A stretch of 20,369 nucleotides of DNA from Candidatus Latescibacterota bacterium (GTDB taxonomy: Bacteria; Latescibacterota; UBA2968; UBA8231). The position numbers and the translations under genes are program-made. The DNA lies in contig JAJDYK010000362.1 in assembly GCA_022825185.1 (NCBI GenBank), forward strand, positions 1-20,369. Direction: 5' to 3'. Numbering within the stretch: position 1 is the stretch's first letter; every line of letters starts with the position of its first letter. The notes below the pieces were generated by a model. It had not been told where the DNA came from, ran no database searches, and saw only the letters and a program-made list of their open reading frames with translations. Shown here piece by piece: positions 9,107 through 20,369 of this stretch.

Positions 9107-10282
9107 ATGTTCAAGCTATTTATATTGGTTTTAGCTGTCGCGATTGCAGGATGCGGCTCGAACCAAGTTAAAATCGAGATCAAGGGCGGAGACGGCCAAC
9201 TCGTGCGCTTAGACGCCAATGACGTCCAATACAAATTCAACCACTTGGTCAGAGCCGGAACCTACATCTTGCCCGAGCCAGATAGCAAAATCGAATTGGG
9301 CGGAGGTGCGTACGCTGTCAATGTCGCCGTGGGGGATTATCTGGGTAACAAGGTCTTGCAAGTGGAATCGCCGCCGCTGTGGGGCGTGCGGACCTACGAG
9401 GCGATCTTCGATATTCCCGCTAGCAGCAATGCTCCTTTCAAACGCGAAGGTACAATACTCTACGCCTCGACTAAGAAAAACGTCCGCAACTGGGACTTGT
9501 TTACCATCAAGGCCGATGGCAGCGATCGTCAGCAACTAACCCACACTCCCGAACCCGAGCAGCATCCCTCTTGGTCGCCCGACGGGAAGAAGATCCTTTT
9601 CACTCGCGGCGACGTGATGAGTAACATCGACCTCTACGTCATGGATGCCGATAGCTCTAATGTCGTGCGCCTGACCGAACATCCCGAGCGCGATCAGCGC
9701 GGCGTTTTTTCGCCCGACGGCGAGATGATCGCCTTCGTCAGTCAGCGCGACGGTGATGTGGCCGTCTGGCTCATGGACGCCGATGGGGCCAACCCGCGGA
9801 AGTTGGTCCAAGGTGGCCAGCCTTCGTTTTCGCCTGACGGCCGCCGCATCGCCTTTACTTCTGCGGCCTTCGACGACAACGCCGAGATTTACCTCATTGA
9901 TCTCGACGGATCGAATCGGACTCGCCTCACCGAAAATCGGCGCAAGCTCGACTTGTTCGCGTCGTTTTCTCCAAAAGGCGACCGCTTGGCTTACAACTCG
10001 GAGGAGTTTGGTGGTCAAGAACTGATGCTCATGCGGCCCGACGGGCAAGGGCAGACCCGCATCTCCATTGCCGAGAAGACCTATGAGCAAGAGCCCGTCT
10101 GGTCGCCCGATGGCAAGGGGATAGCTTATGCGGGCAGGATGGGCGACGACGAATACGACATTTACTTGGTCGGCACGGCTGGATTCGACATGGACGATAT
10201 GGACGAGCCGCCGCTGATGCCCATCAATCTGACCGACAACGACGACCGCGACGATATGTCGCCGAGCTGGCGTCCCTACTGA
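9107..10282 (+). CDS. TolB-like beta-propeller lipoprotein (PD40 repeats)
   Basis: The 391-residue product starts with a lipoprotein signal, lipobox IAGC with Cys16, so it should be lipid-anchored in the envelope. Residues 17 to about 115 form a small beta-rich domain. From about 120 on there are PD40/WD40-like blades, each with a WSPDG-type turn: PSWSPDGKKILF (154-165), GVFSPDGEMIAF, PSFSPDGRRIAF, ASFSPKGDRLAY, PVWSPDGKGIAY and a final PSWRPY. This is the propeller seen in TolB, but TolB itself is a soluble periplasmic protein encoded with tolQRA and pal, none of which are here. A binding or scaffolding role is likely. AAGGAG 6 bases before the ATG marks the start. The gene lies 36 bases after the acyltransferase gene and 6 bases before the glycosyltransferase gene. 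Confidence 0.85.
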   Translation: MFKLFILVLAVAIAGCGSNQVKIEIKGGDGQLVRLDANDVQYKFNHLVRAGTYILPEPDSKIELGGGAYAVNVAVGDYLGNKVLQVESPPLWGVRTYEAIFDIPASSNAPFKREGTILYASTKKNVRNWDLFTIKADGSDRQQLTHTPEPEQHPSWSPDGKKILFTRGDVMSNIDLYVMDADSSNVVRLTEHPERDQRGVFSPDGEMIAFVSQRDGDVAVWLMDADGANPRKLVQGGQPSFSPDGRRIAFTSAAFDDNAEIYLIDLDGSNRTRLTENRRKLDLFASFSPKGDRLAYNSEEFGGQELMLMRPDGQGQTRISIAEKTYEQEPVWSPDGKGIAYAGRMGDDEYDIYLVGTAGFDMDDMDEPPLMPINLTDNDDRDDMSPSWRPY

Positions 10283-13853: not shown

Positions 13854-13913
13854 GAGGCAACAAGCTATAGTCCGCGGCTACGATGGAGATTGAGCCGAAA
13901 AGGTCGCTGCCTC
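13854..13913 (+). other. Nested hairpin in the leader of the CBM9-like gene
   Basis: GAGGCA (13854-13859) can pair with TGCCTC (13908-13913), enclosing a second hairpin CGGCT (13875-13879) with AGCCG (13893-13897). The 298 bases between 13654 and 13951 hold no convincing gene; apart from the promoter palindrome this fold is the only structure I can see. It ends 23 bases before the Shine-Dalgarno sequence GGAAGGAG (13937-13944), so it could affect translation. I could not match it to a known riboswitch class. Confidence 0.3.
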
Positions 13914-13951: not shown

Positions 13952-14854
13952 ATGAAACGTCTATATGGCCTTTTGGCTATGGGCCTGATTGTGGGCCTGA
14001 CGAGCGGTGCCAGTGCGCATATTGGCGAACAGGTTTACCTGCTCTTTGAGCTCCCTGAAGCTGATCTGGCCGATATCGATCTGCGTGACGCCAGCATAGC
14101 CGACTGGGAAGATGTAGTTGGTGATGCACAGTTGGTCACCACTGATTTCTTTCAGGATCCGACTGTGGGCGACGGTGCCCAGTACGATCCGGCGGACCTA
14201 GACTATCGCATTTGGCTGGCTTGGAATGGCAATGCCGGTACCATTTGGATGGGCATGGAGCGCATCGACAACATCTACATCAACGAGTACGCTGGCGGTG
14301 ACTTGGGTAGCTTGTGGAGACAAGATGCCATTGAGTTCATGCTTGATGGCGACCACACTGGTGGCGATTACACTGGTTCGGCCGATGAGAACTGGACCGA
14401 CGAAGAGAAGGACCTGAATAACAACCGCACGGCTCAGCAGTACGTGGCTATCGGTGATACTCCTGACGGCCGCCACGTCGGCTACCTGGGCAAAGGCACC
14501 GAGTGGGTCAACGCGTTGCCCTACGCTGATGGCGGCGGCGGTTCGACCGGCGACGGGCCGACGACCACAATCATTGAGTTCTTCGTCACGCCTTTCGACG
14601 ACCTAATCTGGAACAGCCCAGACGACAGCGTAGCTTCGCCGCTGTTCGATGGTAAGATCATTGGTTTCCAGATTTCGGCTCAGGACATGGATGAGGGGCC
14701 GAGCGATTACCGCGCTTTTCACACCTTGTCTGGTCAGGCTGCGACTTGGCGCTTTGCCGAGCGCTTCGTCGATGGTCGCCTAGTCGGTGCCGGTGGCGAT
14801 GGCACGGCGGTCGAAGAAGACTCTTGGGGCCGCATCAAGGCCGCGTTTGAGTAA
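13952..14854 (+). CDS. Secreted CBM9-like carbohydrate-binding protein
   Basis: The start at ATG 13952 is fixed by GGAAGGAG (13937-13944) and a signal peptide with cleavage at GASA/HIG (residue 22). The 300-residue product resembles the CBM9-like, DOMON-type sugar-binding fold: an early SIADWEDVVGD segment, then DYRIWLAWN, TIWMGMERID, the central DAIEFMLDGDHTGG and a late GFQISAQDMDEG. Family members bind sugar ends and often sit in secreted enzymes; here there is no attached enzyme, so it may be a free or surface-bound binding protein. The protein is strongly acidic, as many secreted proteins are. It appears to be its own transcription unit, with a palindromic promoter in front and tandem hairpins behind, which suggests controlled and possibly high expression. 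The ligand is unknown. Confidence 0.72.
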   Translation: MKRLYGLLAMGLIVGLTSGASAHIGEQVYLLFELPEADLADIDLRDASIADWEDVVGDAQLVTTDFFQDPTVGDGAQYDPADLDYRIWLAWNGNAGTIWMGMERIDNIYINEYAGGDLGSLWRQDAIEFMLDGDHTGGDYTGSADENWTDEEKDLNNNRTAQQYVAIGDTPDGRHVGYLGKGTEWVNALPYADGGGGSTGDGPTTTIIEFFVTPFDDLIWNSPDDSVASPLFDGKIIGFQISAQDMDEGPSDYRAFHTLSGQAATWRFAERFVDGRLVGAGGDGTAVEEDSWGRIKAAFE

Positions 14855-14879: not shown

Positions 14880-14926
14880 ATTTTAAGGAGAGGGGGAATA
14901 CGTCCTCCTCTCCTTAAAATCATTTT
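14880..14926 (+). terminator. Strong intrinsic-terminator-like hairpin after the CBM9-like gene
   Basis: ATTTTAAGGAGAGG (14880-14893) pairs perfectly with CCTCTCCTTAAAAT (14907-14920). The stem extends inward by a G-T wobble and three pairs to 18 bp (14880-14897 with 14903-14920) around a 5-base loop, followed by CATTTT. The long A/T-flanked GC core suggests a terminator that could work in both directions, since the minus strand reads TTTAGAAAAA next to the stem. Confidence 0.7.
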
Positions 14927-15033: not shown

Positions 15034-17514
15034 ATGAGAATTGGGATTTGTGTCGCCGCGTTGGTTTTGGGCGGTTGGGTAAATGCTGCTGCGGAGTTGC
15101 GGCTGTTCGCTATTCCGGGCAATACAACTTGGATTGATGCCAAGCAGGGACCGCTTTCAGAAAATCGCTTCATTGAAGTAATAGACCTTGAAAGCTATGA
15201 AAATGGCATTGGGCCTATTACCCCATCGCGTGTAGTTCCCGTTCCCGAAGTTCCTCTCGCATTAACCGCCGCCGAAGTGGATGCAGCGACCGATTCCAGC
15301 CTCTTTGCCTTCTCGCTTAATGTAACCAGAGCCGATGTAGTAGCACCGACTGATATCGAACTCGAAGATGGTACGACCGTAAAGGCGGGCACGGTCTTGG
15401 TTCCTCGTTGGAGTTCCTTCCCGCGTAGCTTAGAGGCCGTCCAGTTATTGCGTCGGGCTGGCATCACCGAGATTGAGGCCATGATCAACGTGGCCGAGTC
15501 CTTCCCCCGCCCTCCCAGCGGCGACAAGTACAATAAGGGACTCAATCTCACGCCTCTCGGCATTTTTGAAAGGGCTTTGACTGACCAGCGACTCCAGGAG
15601 GGCTTATGGCACGTTTTCGATGGCGATCCACTGACCCATTTCGAGCGCATTGACCGAGTTGGGCAGGACGTCAAACAGCAATGGATTCTCTATATCGACT
15701 TAGGACGCTACTTTCCAATCCGCTTGTTCCGCCTCTATCCCAGTCTTGAAGAGCCCTCGCGCGTTTCAGCTTATACCTTCTATAGGGGCCTGCCTGGGAC
15801 TGAAAAGGTGATTGCCGGCCTTAGTCTCGACGATCCGAGTGTTGGGCAGTTGGCGTTCCCTAGATTCACTAAGATAGCCTCGACTTTTCCGACCTTCGTT
15901 CCCGAGTCGAGCGCACCGGTCAATGTGGAAGACACTATTGCCGTGGCCTTTGAGCCGCAGGCCTACATGCGCTATGCGCGCTTTGATTTTCAGACTCCGC
16001 TGGATTACGATTTAGCTGAAATGGAGTTTTTAGCTGACGGCTTTGTGCCTGAGGCGGTTTATACTTCCAATGCACTGCCGCTGCCCCCAGCGACCTTGGG
16101 ACGGATCTTCTGGGACGAGCGAAAAATTGGCGATCCCAACGGGTCGCGCGCTATCGTGCGCGTACAGACAGGCGTCAATCCCGAGCCGGAGGTACTTTTT
16201 CGCGTCAACAAATTCGAGCGCTCGGTGGAGTGGAAAGAGGAAGGGGCGAGCATCACCGACCAACGGCTTGGCTCTAAGACCTTCGGCCAGGAAGTGGACC
16301 TAAACGATGAGGCTCTCAATCTGGAAGCCCGTGAGATCTTCAGTGCTGCCTTGCCCGAAGACCGAGCGCGAGTCCGCCTGACCCGCGCTGAGTACAAGGC
16401 TCTGCCGGGCAATGAGCGGCGCCATGTTGAGCCCGATCTCGAGTTTTGGAGTGGTGTTCAGTTGGCTAACAATGGCCAGTTGATCAATGCACCGAGTGGT
16501 CGGCCCTTCATTCAGATTGAGGTTGAGTTTCTGAGCGAAGATCCTGCGGCGGCTACGATTATTAGCAATTTGCGTTTTGAATACTCCGCTCCGCAGATCA
16601 CGGATCAGGTCTTCGGCGAAATTGCTCCGGCCGTGGATGTGATTGCTGGCCGCGATACCTCCTTTGTGCTGGTCCTCAACGCTGGACTAGGGGCTGAGAA
16701 CAATGGGTTCAACCGCTTGCAGGTTTTTACGCCAGCGCGTGCGGAAGCCATTGAGGGGGTGGAAGTGGATCTAGGCGACGGAGAGTTCTTGGACTTGGAA
16801 CGAGTGGATGACGAAGGCAAGATAGGCGAGGGACAGTTTCGAGAATTGTACGTCGCCGATGATCAGTTCGTCGTTGGTTTTCCAACCATAGGCCCAGCTG
16901 AGGAAGGCCAAGTCCGCAACGCATTGGTAAAGGTCCGCTTTCAGGGCCGGGTCATCGACTTCCGCACCAACTTCGCTGCCAATGTATTCTTAGACACTTT
17001 AGATGCAGAAGCAGAGCGGCGCTTTACCAGTAGCGGCATTTTGGCGCTTGGGGGTAATGAGAGTGCGCTTGATACGCTGGCCATTTTCTTGCCACAGCGG
17101 GTGGAGGACAATGACGTGGTAGATTTCGCAGCGACGGACCAGCTCTCAGATCGCAATTCCCTAGCGGTGATCGCCGATATTTCAGCGCAGAGCGAGAACC
17201 TAGTGACCAATTTCAAGGTCGTGCCCAATCCTTTTACGCCCAATGGCGACGACGTCAACGACGAAGTAGTCGTGACTTTTGACGTCCAGCGATTGCTAAC
17301 GCCTAAGCCATTATATCTGGAGATATTCGATTTGAACGGTCGGCGTAGGCGTCTCATTGAGCGCCAGCTATCGTCGGGGGGATATTCCCAACAGTGGGAT
17401 GGCCGCGACGATGCTGGACAGGTCGTGCCTCCAGGGCTATACCTATTGCGCATTTCGACCGACGCTGATCATGCAGGTGAGGCCCAGACGCGCATCATTT
17501 CCGTAGCGTATTAG
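15034..17514 (+). CDS. Large secreted protein with discoidin-like region and FlgD/CHU_C-like C-terminal domain
   Basis: This 826-residue protein has a signal peptide (RIGICVAALVLGGWVNAAA, cleavage near residue 20). Residues about 190-345 look discoidin-like: FDGDPLTHF (195-203), then WILYIDLGRYFPI, RYARFDF and LAEMEFLADG. A short motif YKALPGNERR follows at 454-463, then a block around PFIQIEVEFLSEDP (491-504) with NLRFEYSAP. The C-terminus has VVPNPFTPNGDDVND (729-743) and WDGRDDAGQVVPPGLYLLRIS (788-808), the FlgD-Ig/CHU_C-type domain that ends many secreted proteins of FCB bacteria and can act as a sorting or anchoring module. GGGAG lies upstream of the ATG. It is followed after 35 bases by a diverged paralogue. 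No enzyme motif is seen; a structural or adhesive surface role is likely but unproven. Confidence 0.78.
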   Translation: MRIGICVAALVLGGWVNAAAELRLFAIPGNTTWIDAKQGPLSENRFIEVIDLESYENGIGPITPSRVVPVPEVPLALTAAEVDAATDSSLFAFSLNVTRADVVAPTDIELEDGTTVKAGTVLVPRWSSFPRSLEAVQLLRRAGITEIEAMINVAESFPRPPSGDKYNKGLNLTPLGIFERALTDQRLQEGLWHVFDGDPLTHFERIDRVGQDVKQQWILYIDLGRYFPIRLFRLYPSLEEPSRVSAYTFYRGLPGTEKVIAGLSLDDPSVGQLAFPRFTKIASTFPTFVPESSAPVNVEDTIAVAFEPQAYMRYARFDFQTPLDYDLAEMEFLADGFVPEAVYTSNALPLPPATLGRIFWDERKIGDPNGSRAIVRVQTGVNPEPEVLFRVNKFERSVEWKEEGASITDQRLGSKTFGQEVDLNDEALNLEAREIFSAALPEDRARVRLTRAEYKALPGNERRHVEPDLEFWSGVQLANNGQLINAPSGRPFIQIEVEFLSEDPAAATIISNLRFEYSAPQITDQVFGEIAPAVDVIAGRDTSFVLVLNAGLGAENNGFNRLQVFTPARAEAIEGVEVDLGDGEFLDLERVDDEGKIGEGQFRELYVADDQFVVGFPTIGPAEEGQVRNALVKVRFQGRVIDFRTNFAANVFLDTLDAEAERRFTSSGILALGGNESALDTLAIFLPQRVEDNDVVDFAATDQLSDRNSLAVIADISAQSENLVTNFKVVPNPFTPNGDDVNDEVVVTFDVQRLLTPKPLYLEIFDLNGRRRRLIERQLSSGGYSQQWDGRDDAGQVVPPGLYLLRISTDADHAGEAQTRIISVAY

Positions 17515-17549
17515 CTTTAGCTATAACGCGCGAAAAGAAAGGAAATGCT

Positions 17550-20369
17550 ATGAAACGGCTGCTAAAGCGGAAGACGGCTCTCTTAGCCGTGTTATTTTTG
17601 CCTAGTTTCTGTCTGGCTCAAACGGATGCCTATCGGCTTTTCGGCAGCTCGATTCGCGTGGATCGGGCTTCGCACTGGGAAAACTGGATTTATCAGAACG
17701 ACTTGGTCTCCCAGTTGAACGTGCCAATCCGCGATGCGGACATTTTCCGAGTTGATGCCGATGGGCTGCGGCCGACTTTCTTTCGCCGCAATATCAACGT
17801 GGCCCCGACGGCTGTCGATTTCACCTATCCTGATTTGGTCCGAGCTAACGGCGATCTCGTCTCTGGGGGGGCGACGGCTAAGTCCAATGACGCCTTGGCC
17901 AATAATATCATCGATGGCGATTTAAGCACCTTTTGGGAACCGGACACGCCGATCAGTTTTACGAGCCGCCTGACTCGCCCTGGAGATTTCCATCTCGACG
18001 GTCTGCGCGACTGGGAAATTGAAGTCGATCTGGGGCGGCTGGTCTTTGCCGATAGCCTGACGATTATCTTTCCCGCTGGCCAGTTTGAGGACGAGTTTCT
18101 CGGCGAGCCGGTTAAGGCCTTTGTGCTTTTCGCCTCAATGGGCGAGCGCTTTCCCTTTCCCTTGGGTAACAACCTCAAGTTTTCCGTCGTCGGGCAAGTC
18201 TCTACCGGCTTCGTCGCTGGCAAATTGGCCCAGTGTGTTCGCGATGAAAGCGCGGGCTACGCTGGCGAAACTCGCTGTGAAGGTGGGGGAGGAGGTGAGA
18301 CCGGTGAAGTGACGCTGGTTCCGATGCCTGGGAGTGAGGGGCGCTATGTGCAGATGACCTTCCCGCTCTTGCCGCTGGATCGAGCCGACTGGGACTTGGA
18401 TGGCCGGCCCGATATTAACGGAGCTTTCATCCATTACGTCCGCATTAAAATTACGGATTCAGACCTCTGGCGCGACGCCTTTTTGGGCACGGGCGAAGAG
18501 GCACGTCTCGCCTATGAAGCATTGCCCCAAGAGCAGCGCGGTGCGATCGTCTATCAGCGCCAGACAGCCGGTGGCCTACTCGTGGAACTCCAAAACGACG
18601 ACAATCTGACGGCCGCAGAAAAGTATCAAGCCCTGCCCGAGGAAAAACGCGGTCCGATCCTCTATTATAGCAAGGAGGTTCCCCGGATTGCCGAGGTTCA
18701 GGTCTGGGCTAAGGGCGACAACTACGCGCTACAACCCGAAAAGCGCGGCGGTGCCTCGTTTGAAAACGGCGGTTTGGGTGCGCCCAATTTGTCCACGGAT
18801 GGGCTATACGATTCGGAGTGGGTGGCCAATACATGGTCGCCGGTGTACCTCAAAGGCACGGCTTGGTACGACTTAGGGGCTGTATTTTGGGTCGATAATG
18901 TCTCAGTAGTCAACAAGCGCATCAACCAGAGCCACCAAGGTGCCTTCTTGGGGCCGGATATCTTGGTTTCCGACGGCACGCTGCTCAAACCCGTGAGCAT
19001 GGACGACCGCGAGGACTTTCCGCAGCTCGAAGAATCGCTCAAATGGGACAACATCATCAGTGAGGAGCACGTCGATAACCACGGTCCGGTAGTGCGCATT
19101 TTCCGCGAGACTTTTCCTTGGCGCAAGATACGCTTTTTGCAAATCCGCGACATCGACGTCACCGGAAATCAATCCGGTCGCTATGGTGCACTGGCGACTT
19201 TAGCCGAGATCCAGCTTTACGGCGAGGGGTATCCGGTGAGCGTGTGGGCGTACTCGCCACCGATCACGCTGACCGATTCACGCGGCAACTTCATCCGCAA
19301 AACCCTGCCGCGCATTGCTTGGGAAGGCGATGTCATCGTCCGCGGGACCGATCCGCTCACCGGCCAAGCCATCGAACGGATCGAGCCGTTGGATCTCCAT
19401 CCAGATGTTCGCTTACAGGTACAGACCCGCACCTCGGATCAGACCGACACCAACTTCACATACTATCAGGTCGTTACTGTTGCTGGCAACGAAGAGCGCG
19501 AGGAAGTGACGAAAGAGGTTTACGACGAGATTGCCTTGGAGTGGACGGCTTGGGAGATCTGGCAGACCCTGCCCGCCAGCCAGCAACACGCCTCGCGCAC
19601 CGACGACGATGGCGACGGGGTCACCGATGAGGATCCGATTGACCTGATTGACAACGATGGCGACGGTAAGGTGGACGAGGACGGCCGCAAACTGCGCCGG
19701 GCACCGCGCTCCAGCTTTGCCAAAGACGGCGAACTGGCATTTGTCGGCTGGAGCGAATGGAGTGAGAGCTATTTGCCCACCAATGGCGTCAACGAGGCGA
19801 CGATCACCTCGCCCAATCCGCGCAAGTTCGTTCAGGTGCGGGTCAATCTCTCTTCAGAGGATCCCTTTAAGACGGCGCGCATCCGCGAGTTGCGCGTTGA
19901 GTTGGCCCCGCCGCTGTCGCTGGAACTGGCCGGCGAGTTGGCACTTCTCACCGACGAGGGAGCAACGCGCGTGCCGACCGACTTGAGTGTGCAGACCTCA
20001 GACTATACGCCGCCGCGCAATATCGATCCGCTCGCGTCGCAGCAGTTTGCTTATTTCATCCGCGCTGCCGAGCCCGACCCGACCGATGCGACCGTGCGCG
20101 ACGGCTTTAACGAGGTGCTGGTCGTCGCGCCGCGCGATGCGCACTTGACCGGTGTGCGCTTGGGGCAGGTCGCTATCGCTCAGACGTCCTCGCTGCTCAA
20201 CCCGGAGGAAACGCAAACCTCGGCGACGACCACGAAGTTTGACCGCGCCTTTGTCCTCGACGACGACGGAGTCTTGCGCGATGCAGATGGCGAGATATTG
20301 GAACGGATGGCGACCGGCGCGGATTCGATCTGGGTGCGGTTCCCCTTTTCGCTCAATGCCGATCTGCCG
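17550..20369 (+). CDS. Large secreted discoidin/TSP3-like protein, paralogue of the preceding gene (3' end missing)
   Basis: The frame is open for 940 codons from ATG 17550 to the right edge, so the C-terminus is missing. AAAGGAAA precedes the start; the signal peptide ends near SFCLA/QTD (residue 23). Two discoidin-like regions are visible: IDGDLSTFW (121-129) with WEIEVDLGR, and LSTDGLYDSEW (414-424) to LAEIQLYGEGY (551-561). Two copies of a motif, YEALPQEQRG (322-331) and YQALPEEKRG (359-368), lie between them. Residues 685-712 hold TSP3-like DDDGDGVTDED and DNDGDGKVDEDG, likely calcium sites, inserted before a block (RKFVQVRVNLSSEDP, 758-772) that matches the preceding protein. The order of parts mirrors that protein, so I predict a FlgD-like C-terminal domain beyond the window. 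Surface adhesion or sugar binding is inference. Confidence 0.77.
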   Translation, partial: MKRLLKRKTALLAVLFLPSFCLAQTDAYRLFGSSIRVDRASHWENWIYQNDLVSQLNVPIRDADIFRVDADGLRPTFFRRNINVAPTAVDFTYPDLVRANGDLVSGGATAKSNDALANNIIDGDLSTFWEPDTPISFTSRLTRPGDFHLDGLRDWEIEVDLGRLVFADSLTIIFPAGQFEDEFLGEPVKAFVLFASMGERFPFPLGNNLKFSVVGQVSTGFVAGKLAQCVRDESAGYAGETRCEGGGGGETGEVTLVPMPGSEGRYVQMTFPLLPLDRADWDLDGRPDINGAFIHYVRIKITDSDLWRDAFLGTGEEARLAYEALPQEQRGAIVYQRQTAGGLLVELQNDDNLTAAEKYQALPEEKRGPILYYSKEVPRIAEVQVWAKGDNYALQPEKRGGASFENGGLGAPNLSTDGLYDSEWVANTWSPVYLKGTAWYDLGAVFWVDNVSVVNKRINQSHQGAFLGPDILVSDGTLLKPVSMDDREDFPQLEESLKWDNIISEEHVDNHGPVVRIFRETFPWRKIRFLQIRDIDVTGNQSGRYGALATLAEIQLYGEGYPVSVWAYSPPITLTDSRGNFIRKTLPRIAWEGDVIVRGTDPLTGQAIERIEPLDLHPDVRLQVQTRTSDQTDTNFTYYQVVTVAGNEEREEVTKEVYDEIALEWTAWEIWQTLPASQQHASRTDDDGDGVTDEDPIDLIDNDGDGKVDEDGRKLRRAPRSSFAKDGELAFVGWSEWSESYLPTNGVNEATITSPNPRKFVQVRVNLSSEDPFKTARIRELRVELAPPLSLELAGELALLTDEGATRVPTDLSVQTSDYTPPRNIDPLASQQFAYFIRAAEPDPTDATVRDGFNEVLVVAPRDAHLTGVRLGQVAIAQTSSLLNPEETQTSATTTKFDRAFVLDDDGVLRDADGEILERMATGADSIWVRFPFSLNADLP

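Follow-up and report, generated by a model that had tools for sequence, protein, structure and literature searches.

The window analysed here is the whole 20,369-nucleotide stretch of contig JAJDYK010000362.1 (assembly GCA_022825185.1) from a Candidatus Latescibacterota bacterium. The source is an uncultured marine bacterium. Towards the end of the window lie three genes, here called P, A and B; these genes, their parts and the stem-loop described below are all on the forward strand. P (13952..14854) encodes a small secreted CBM9-like protein of 300 residues directly upstream of A; A (15034..17514) is a complete open reading frame (ORF) of 826 residues; and B, a paralogue of A that follows after 35 bp (17550..20369), is cut by the window end after 940 residues, its full length being 1111 residues in the orthologous locus L021 (12518-15853). 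An earlier note on this DNA had placed A and B correctly and had proposed that the two form an undescribed surface system. Our analysis supports and enlarges this proposal, because the pair belongs to a module that recurs dozens of times among the relatives studied and is linked to a family of predicted outer-membrane barrels of ~900 residues, here called C, encoded just downstream of B.

Both A and B have signal-peptide-like starts, as judged by eye. A carries one discoidin-like domain (15598..16047, residues 189-338), assigned through its homology to the F5/8 type C (F5/8C) domains of B-type proteins (profile against B410-560), followed by a block around the motif SEDP (16447..16593, residues 472-520) and a C-terminal domain of the type IX secretion system (T9SS) sorting type (17212..17511, residues 727-826; FTPNGDxxND...WDGRD...PPGxY). 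Judged from its sequence, B is the architecture of A with two additions, a discoidin-like domain at the N-terminus and an insert with the motifs DDDGDG/DNDGDG. The first, extra F5/8C-like domain (17895..18719, residues 116-390, limits approximate) holds a long insertion, the second (18777..19235, residues 410-562) is collinear with the discoidin-like domain of A, and the SEDP block recurs at 19758..19913 (residues 737-788). The TSP3-like insertion that the earlier note had described in B can be read directly from the sequence at 19596..19685 (residues 683-712), partly opposite gaps in A.

Single-sequence BLASTP of A against B yields one significant block, A472-520/B737-788 (35.8 bits, E 1e-5), which corresponds to the shared SEDP block; none of 500 shuffled versions of A reached this score (maximum 30.4 bits). 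Profiles built from orthologs only align A columns 512-867 with B 739-1113 (E 5.9e-22), while paralogue-enriched profiles, numbered as in the L021 orthologs, pair A189-826 with B410-1111 in a collinear match (567 columns, probability 100, E 3.1e-75). A separate profile match joins A190-272 to B116-202 (E 6.8e-11). The similarity thus reaches outside the discoidin folds and is strongest in two other regions, the SEDP block and the T9SS-like domain at the C-terminus; by these alignments A and B are diverged paralogues, homologous well beyond their discoidin domains.

The alignment also revises how the parts of the two proteins correspond. The earlier note had paired a DGD...DLGR loop and an end-of-discoidin segment of A with counterparts in B as parts in a shared order; in B, the loop (B122-163, DGDLSTFW) lies in the first, extra domain and LAEIQLYGEGY (B551) in the second. 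The additional discoidin section assigned to B does exist, and it is the N-terminal domain, since the collinear partner of the domain in A is the second domain of B. The ALP motif occurs in both proteins (A347, A439; B324, B361), but is not ordered shared evidence because the copies in B fall outside the collinear alignment.

Searching genome contigs with protein A returned 14 loci, comprising 12 full-length relatives (66-98% identity) and two with the C-terminal domain only. All 12 full-length loci come from metagenome-assembled genomes (MAGs) titled Latescibacterota/Latescibacteria or Gemmatimonadota/Gemmatimonadetes/Gemmatimonadaceae. The order P-A-B is kept in 12 of 12 of them, and C comes next in 11 of 11 where the contig continues, the contig of L029 ending inside B. 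Because a strong stem-loop stands between P and A, but the gaps are only 35 bases between A and B and 45 between B and C (in L021), A, B and C look like one operon. The stem-loop (14880..14920; 18 pairs, 7 GC) is terminator-like and the longest such stem in the scanned stretch, in a consensus-only scan that found 6 sites against 3.8 expected; it may set an expression level for P different from that of A-B-C.

The family is greatly expanded. In G001, the nearest genome compared, protein A matches at least 244 places (best 150 of 277 candidates scored), and most of the matches listed involve the C-terminal domain. A profile of this domain finds at least 150 places in G001 (best 150 of 266 candidates) and at least 150 in a second relative, G050 (best 150 of 330), with 41 places in G017 and 15 in G039. 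In 20 stretches of G001, picked for holding family members, 72 ORFs match the A or B profiles, and 67 proteins from these stretches split into A and B clades. In a tree of 71 rows, one branch separates 43 A from 28 B (SH-aLRT 97); because each protein had been labelled A or B from its profile scores, the unrooted tree shows consistency and does not test the split independently. We therefore reject the idea that B arose from A by a recent tandem duplication at this locus: of the duplication proposed in the earlier note, the paralogy holds, the locality to this locus does not, and its picture of an old duplication with domain gain agrees with both the profile alignment and the clade tree. At other loci, near-identical neighbouring copies are three B-type genes at L036:13470-19501 (one cut by the stretch end) and two A-type genes at L042:5928-9928, and local tandem duplication therefore seems to be ongoing.

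The association of A with B extends beyond the orthologs. Among the 67 G001 proteins, 32 neighbouring pairs lie on the same strand within 400 bases, and 23 of these are of A-B type against 48% expected (one-sided binomial 0.006, the pairs not being independent), with A upstream in 16 of the 23. Distances among A and B proteins are strongly correlated across 18 adjacent pairs (Mantel r 0.92; 0 of 20000 permutations as high, maximum 0.56). The same is seen for A and C in 14 neighbours (r 0.86, 0/10000) and for B and C in six (r 0.87, 92/10000). About 41 copies of C are present in G001 and 47 in G050, where every one of the 47 has at least one of 144 C-terminal-domain genes within 10 kb, and 43 of them have one within 4 kb; after control rotations of at least 30 kb, the corresponding counts averaged about 10 and 5, with maxima of 23 and 15. 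Duplication of the unit as a block, followed by joint divergence, explains the matching trees, which speak for a shared function without proving it. The family might be a large paralogous secreted family and nothing more, its adjacency and matching trees produced by block duplication without a joint function. Block duplication yields matching trees by itself, and near-identical local copies are indeed present; against this, even orthologs in which A has fallen to 66-68% identity retain the P-A-B-C order, and the proximity of C to C-terminal-domain genes at every G050 locus is a linkage that drift would be expected to break. We consider this explanation quite improbable.

The C family has 1100 matched database proteins, and no Pfam domain was present in the 120 listed among them. 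Plug and TonB-receptor domains were absent from 23 members (Pfam, E<=0.5). An alignment of 50 members found nothing among PDB sequences up to E 10, and a single C sequence gave three chance-level matches. The barrel fold and the outer-membrane location are predictions. In a Foldseek search with C, the T9SS translocon 6h3i appeared only at rank 38 (E 1.1e-3). That C is an SprA-like translocon was rejected, since a single, separate SprA is encoded in G001 and no C gene of that genome was matched by the SprA profile. C could alternatively be a dedicated exporter or assembly barrel, either for A and B or, like AlgE, for a polysaccharide that A and B would then decorate, a proposal we regard as improbable. 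In G039, a genome of the same class without the C family, 31 PorV-family matches were counted against 12 in G001 and 13 in G050, and a different barrel family may have expanded there.

The C-terminal domains tie A and B to type IX secretion. FlgD_ig was detected in 18 of 18 A-type and 28 of 29 B-type proteins, and CHU_C in 17 of 18 and 29 of 29 (Pfam, E<=0.1), the A of the window falling just below the gathering scores. A predicted model of its C-terminal domain has structural matches to PorU/PorZ, and outside this domain the model gave no usable fold match and is uninformative on those parts. When core genes of the system were sought in relatives, SprA, PorV and PorU scored above curated cut-offs in G001, as did PorV and PorU in G050. 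These proteins resemble T9SS cargo with type A/B C-terminal domains in their FlgD_ig/CHU_C domain and in the SprA, PorV and PorU of G001; they differ in that the A of the window matches TIGR04183 and TIGR04131 only with scores under the cut-off, and in recurring as A-B pairs, often beside a barrel. It is very probable that A and B are exported to the surface by this route.

Sugar binding is suggested by the remaining domains. Of 29 B-type paralogues, 26 match Pfam F5_F8_type_C (E<=0.1, best 1.7e-10), as does one of 18 A-type members (9.2e-5). The A of the window lacks a match of its own, but both it and the L021 B, which also lacks one, align with family members that match. For the first F5/8C-like domain of B, positions 93-196 of the B-family profile match the alpha-N-acetylglucosaminidase chains 4a4a and 2vc9, and for the second, positions 242-342 match FBP32 3cqo (E 5.2e-6), structures to which we take the labels CBM32, GH89 and fucolectin to apply. 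Along with these matches, the F5_F8_type_C content of the B-type proteins likens them to CBM32/F5/8 type C modules; unlike such modules, the A and B families show no catalytic domain in Pfam scans, and B has two tandem domains, the first with a long insertion. That the discoidin-like domains bind sugars is somewhat likely.

F5/8C domains are also common in adhesins. A and B could thus be T9SS-displayed adhesins for host or matrix glycans, with C as their outer-membrane anchor and no uptake. The names of several ortholog MAGs presumably point to a sponge origin, although others do not suggest sponges. In PMC8163846, sponge-associated MAGs are reported to be enriched in attachment genes, and Latescibacterota are counted among lineages with an abundance of glycosyl hydrolases and eukaryote-like repeats. 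About 40 barrels, with co-diverging A neighbours in the 14 pairs compared, seem more than an anchor needs, and we judge adhesion of this kind unlikely.

The ORF call of the upstream gene P begins at 13883, and the start at 13952 was chosen by homology. Pfam CBM9_1 is matched by three of 16 P-family members (best 4e-6) but not by the P of the window, and the family profile (an alignment of 16) matches xylanase A chain 1i82 (E 3.8e-4). P differs from this C-terminal CBM9 module of xylanase A in being a stand-alone secreted protein that ends in a VExx[ST]WGx[IV]K tag, here VEEDSWGRIK (14810..14839), four residues before the stop. The pattern occurs 33 times in G001 and 38 times in G050, with no occurrence in three genomes of other families or in reversed-pattern controls. 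In all 30 loci inspected (L059-L088, of 71 matches), it stands 3-8 residues before the stop; its bearers are 21 CBM9-like proteins, five TolB-like proteins and one such fragment, two proteins of 166 residues and one of 423, and these groups are unlinked by BLASTP outside the tail. This distribution makes it possible that VExx[ST]WGx[IV]K is an undescribed sorting tag, and its variants SWGRIK, SWGQIK, TWGQIK and TWGRIK were found in no paper of the PMC literature searched.

The 20 G001 stretches contain 78 further complete ORFs with 230 residues or more, called mechanically and some probably not genes; among the best 25 of 89 domain families, PPIC-type PPIase domains are carried by nine of these ORFs, TPR by nine, enolase-superfamily domains by five and FG-GAP by five. 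In L021, C is followed by a lipoprotein-like gene (by eye, no Pfam match), a SurA-like PPIase and a GDSL-lipase/TPR gene. Elsewhere in the window, positions 9107-10282 encode a TolB-like propeller protein (PD40 repeats, 1.3e-33), and DSDSDGVPD/DNDSDGVPDHIDSDDDND calcium-binding-like repeats were seen by eye on the minus strand of positions 1-1581, within outer-membrane-protein-like sequence. The window contains no tandem repeats or tRNAs.

Many-copy modules that pair a surface protein with a barrel are best known from the SusCD systems of Bacteroidota, in which a surface-protein gene accompanies a gene for an outer-membrane barrel of ~900-1000 residues in many paralogous, co-diverging copies. 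The P-A-B-C module resembles the SusCD of polysaccharide utilisation loci in these features; it differs in that C has no plug or TonB-receptor domain and that A and B are not SusD-like, having T9SS-type C-terminal domains with F5/8C in the family. Pfam scans covering 18 A and 29 B members revealed no SusD-type domain. Going by domain content, the module is not a SusCD system, the defining domains having been tested for and not found. The domain types recognised in A, B and P are all known already, and what may be new in the surface system of the earlier note is the combination: for this, for the pairing with C, for the expansion and for the C family, no description was found in the PMC literature searched. 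Nor did that literature contain a paper connecting type IX secretion with Latescibacteria or Latescibacter, FlgD with Latescibacter, or sponges and type IX secretion with Gemmatimonadota. The portion of PMC4454575 consulted describes non-specific porins and TonB import in Latescibacteria and contains no module like P-A-B-C.

In the explanation we favour, A and B are two secreted proteins of a sugar-binding type (discoidin/CBM32-like) that diverged from each other long ago and that would leave the cell through the T9SS via their C-terminal domains, stay on the surface, and act with the downstream barrel C and the upstream CBM9-like P. Copies with different ligand preferences would have accumulated, the two relatives counted having about 40 barrels per genome, and would give the cell a repertoire of glycan capture-and-uptake complexes that work in the manner of SusCD with unrelated parts. 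Export, binding, co-operation and uptake are successive steps that we infer with unequal confidence. Co-operation of A and B with C, perhaps in a physical complex, is fairly likely, while uptake of the bound ligand through C is possible, at somewhat less than an even chance. Two observations weigh against the account: 32 of 76 clusters have C-terminal-domain genes without C, which speaks against a strict module, and Pfam detects no F5/8C domain in the L021 ortholog of B, which places our confidence in this best explanation a shade below an even balance. We accordingly put forward the T9SS-displayed glycan-capture module with a barrel as a whole only tentatively.

A more far-reaching version, which we consider doubtful, is that Latescibacterota evolved, independently of SusCD, outer-membrane nutrient machines made of a plug-less C of ~900 residues, T9SS-displayed A/B arms and a CBM9 partner P with a new sorting tag, in about 40 specificities per cell. 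The C family, for its part, gains a testable context. If the favoured account is true, the presence in an uncultured phylum of an unrelated module with the logic of SusCD and comparable copy numbers would mean that this design evolved more than once, and it would provide a handle on what these uncultured bacteria eat or hold on to.
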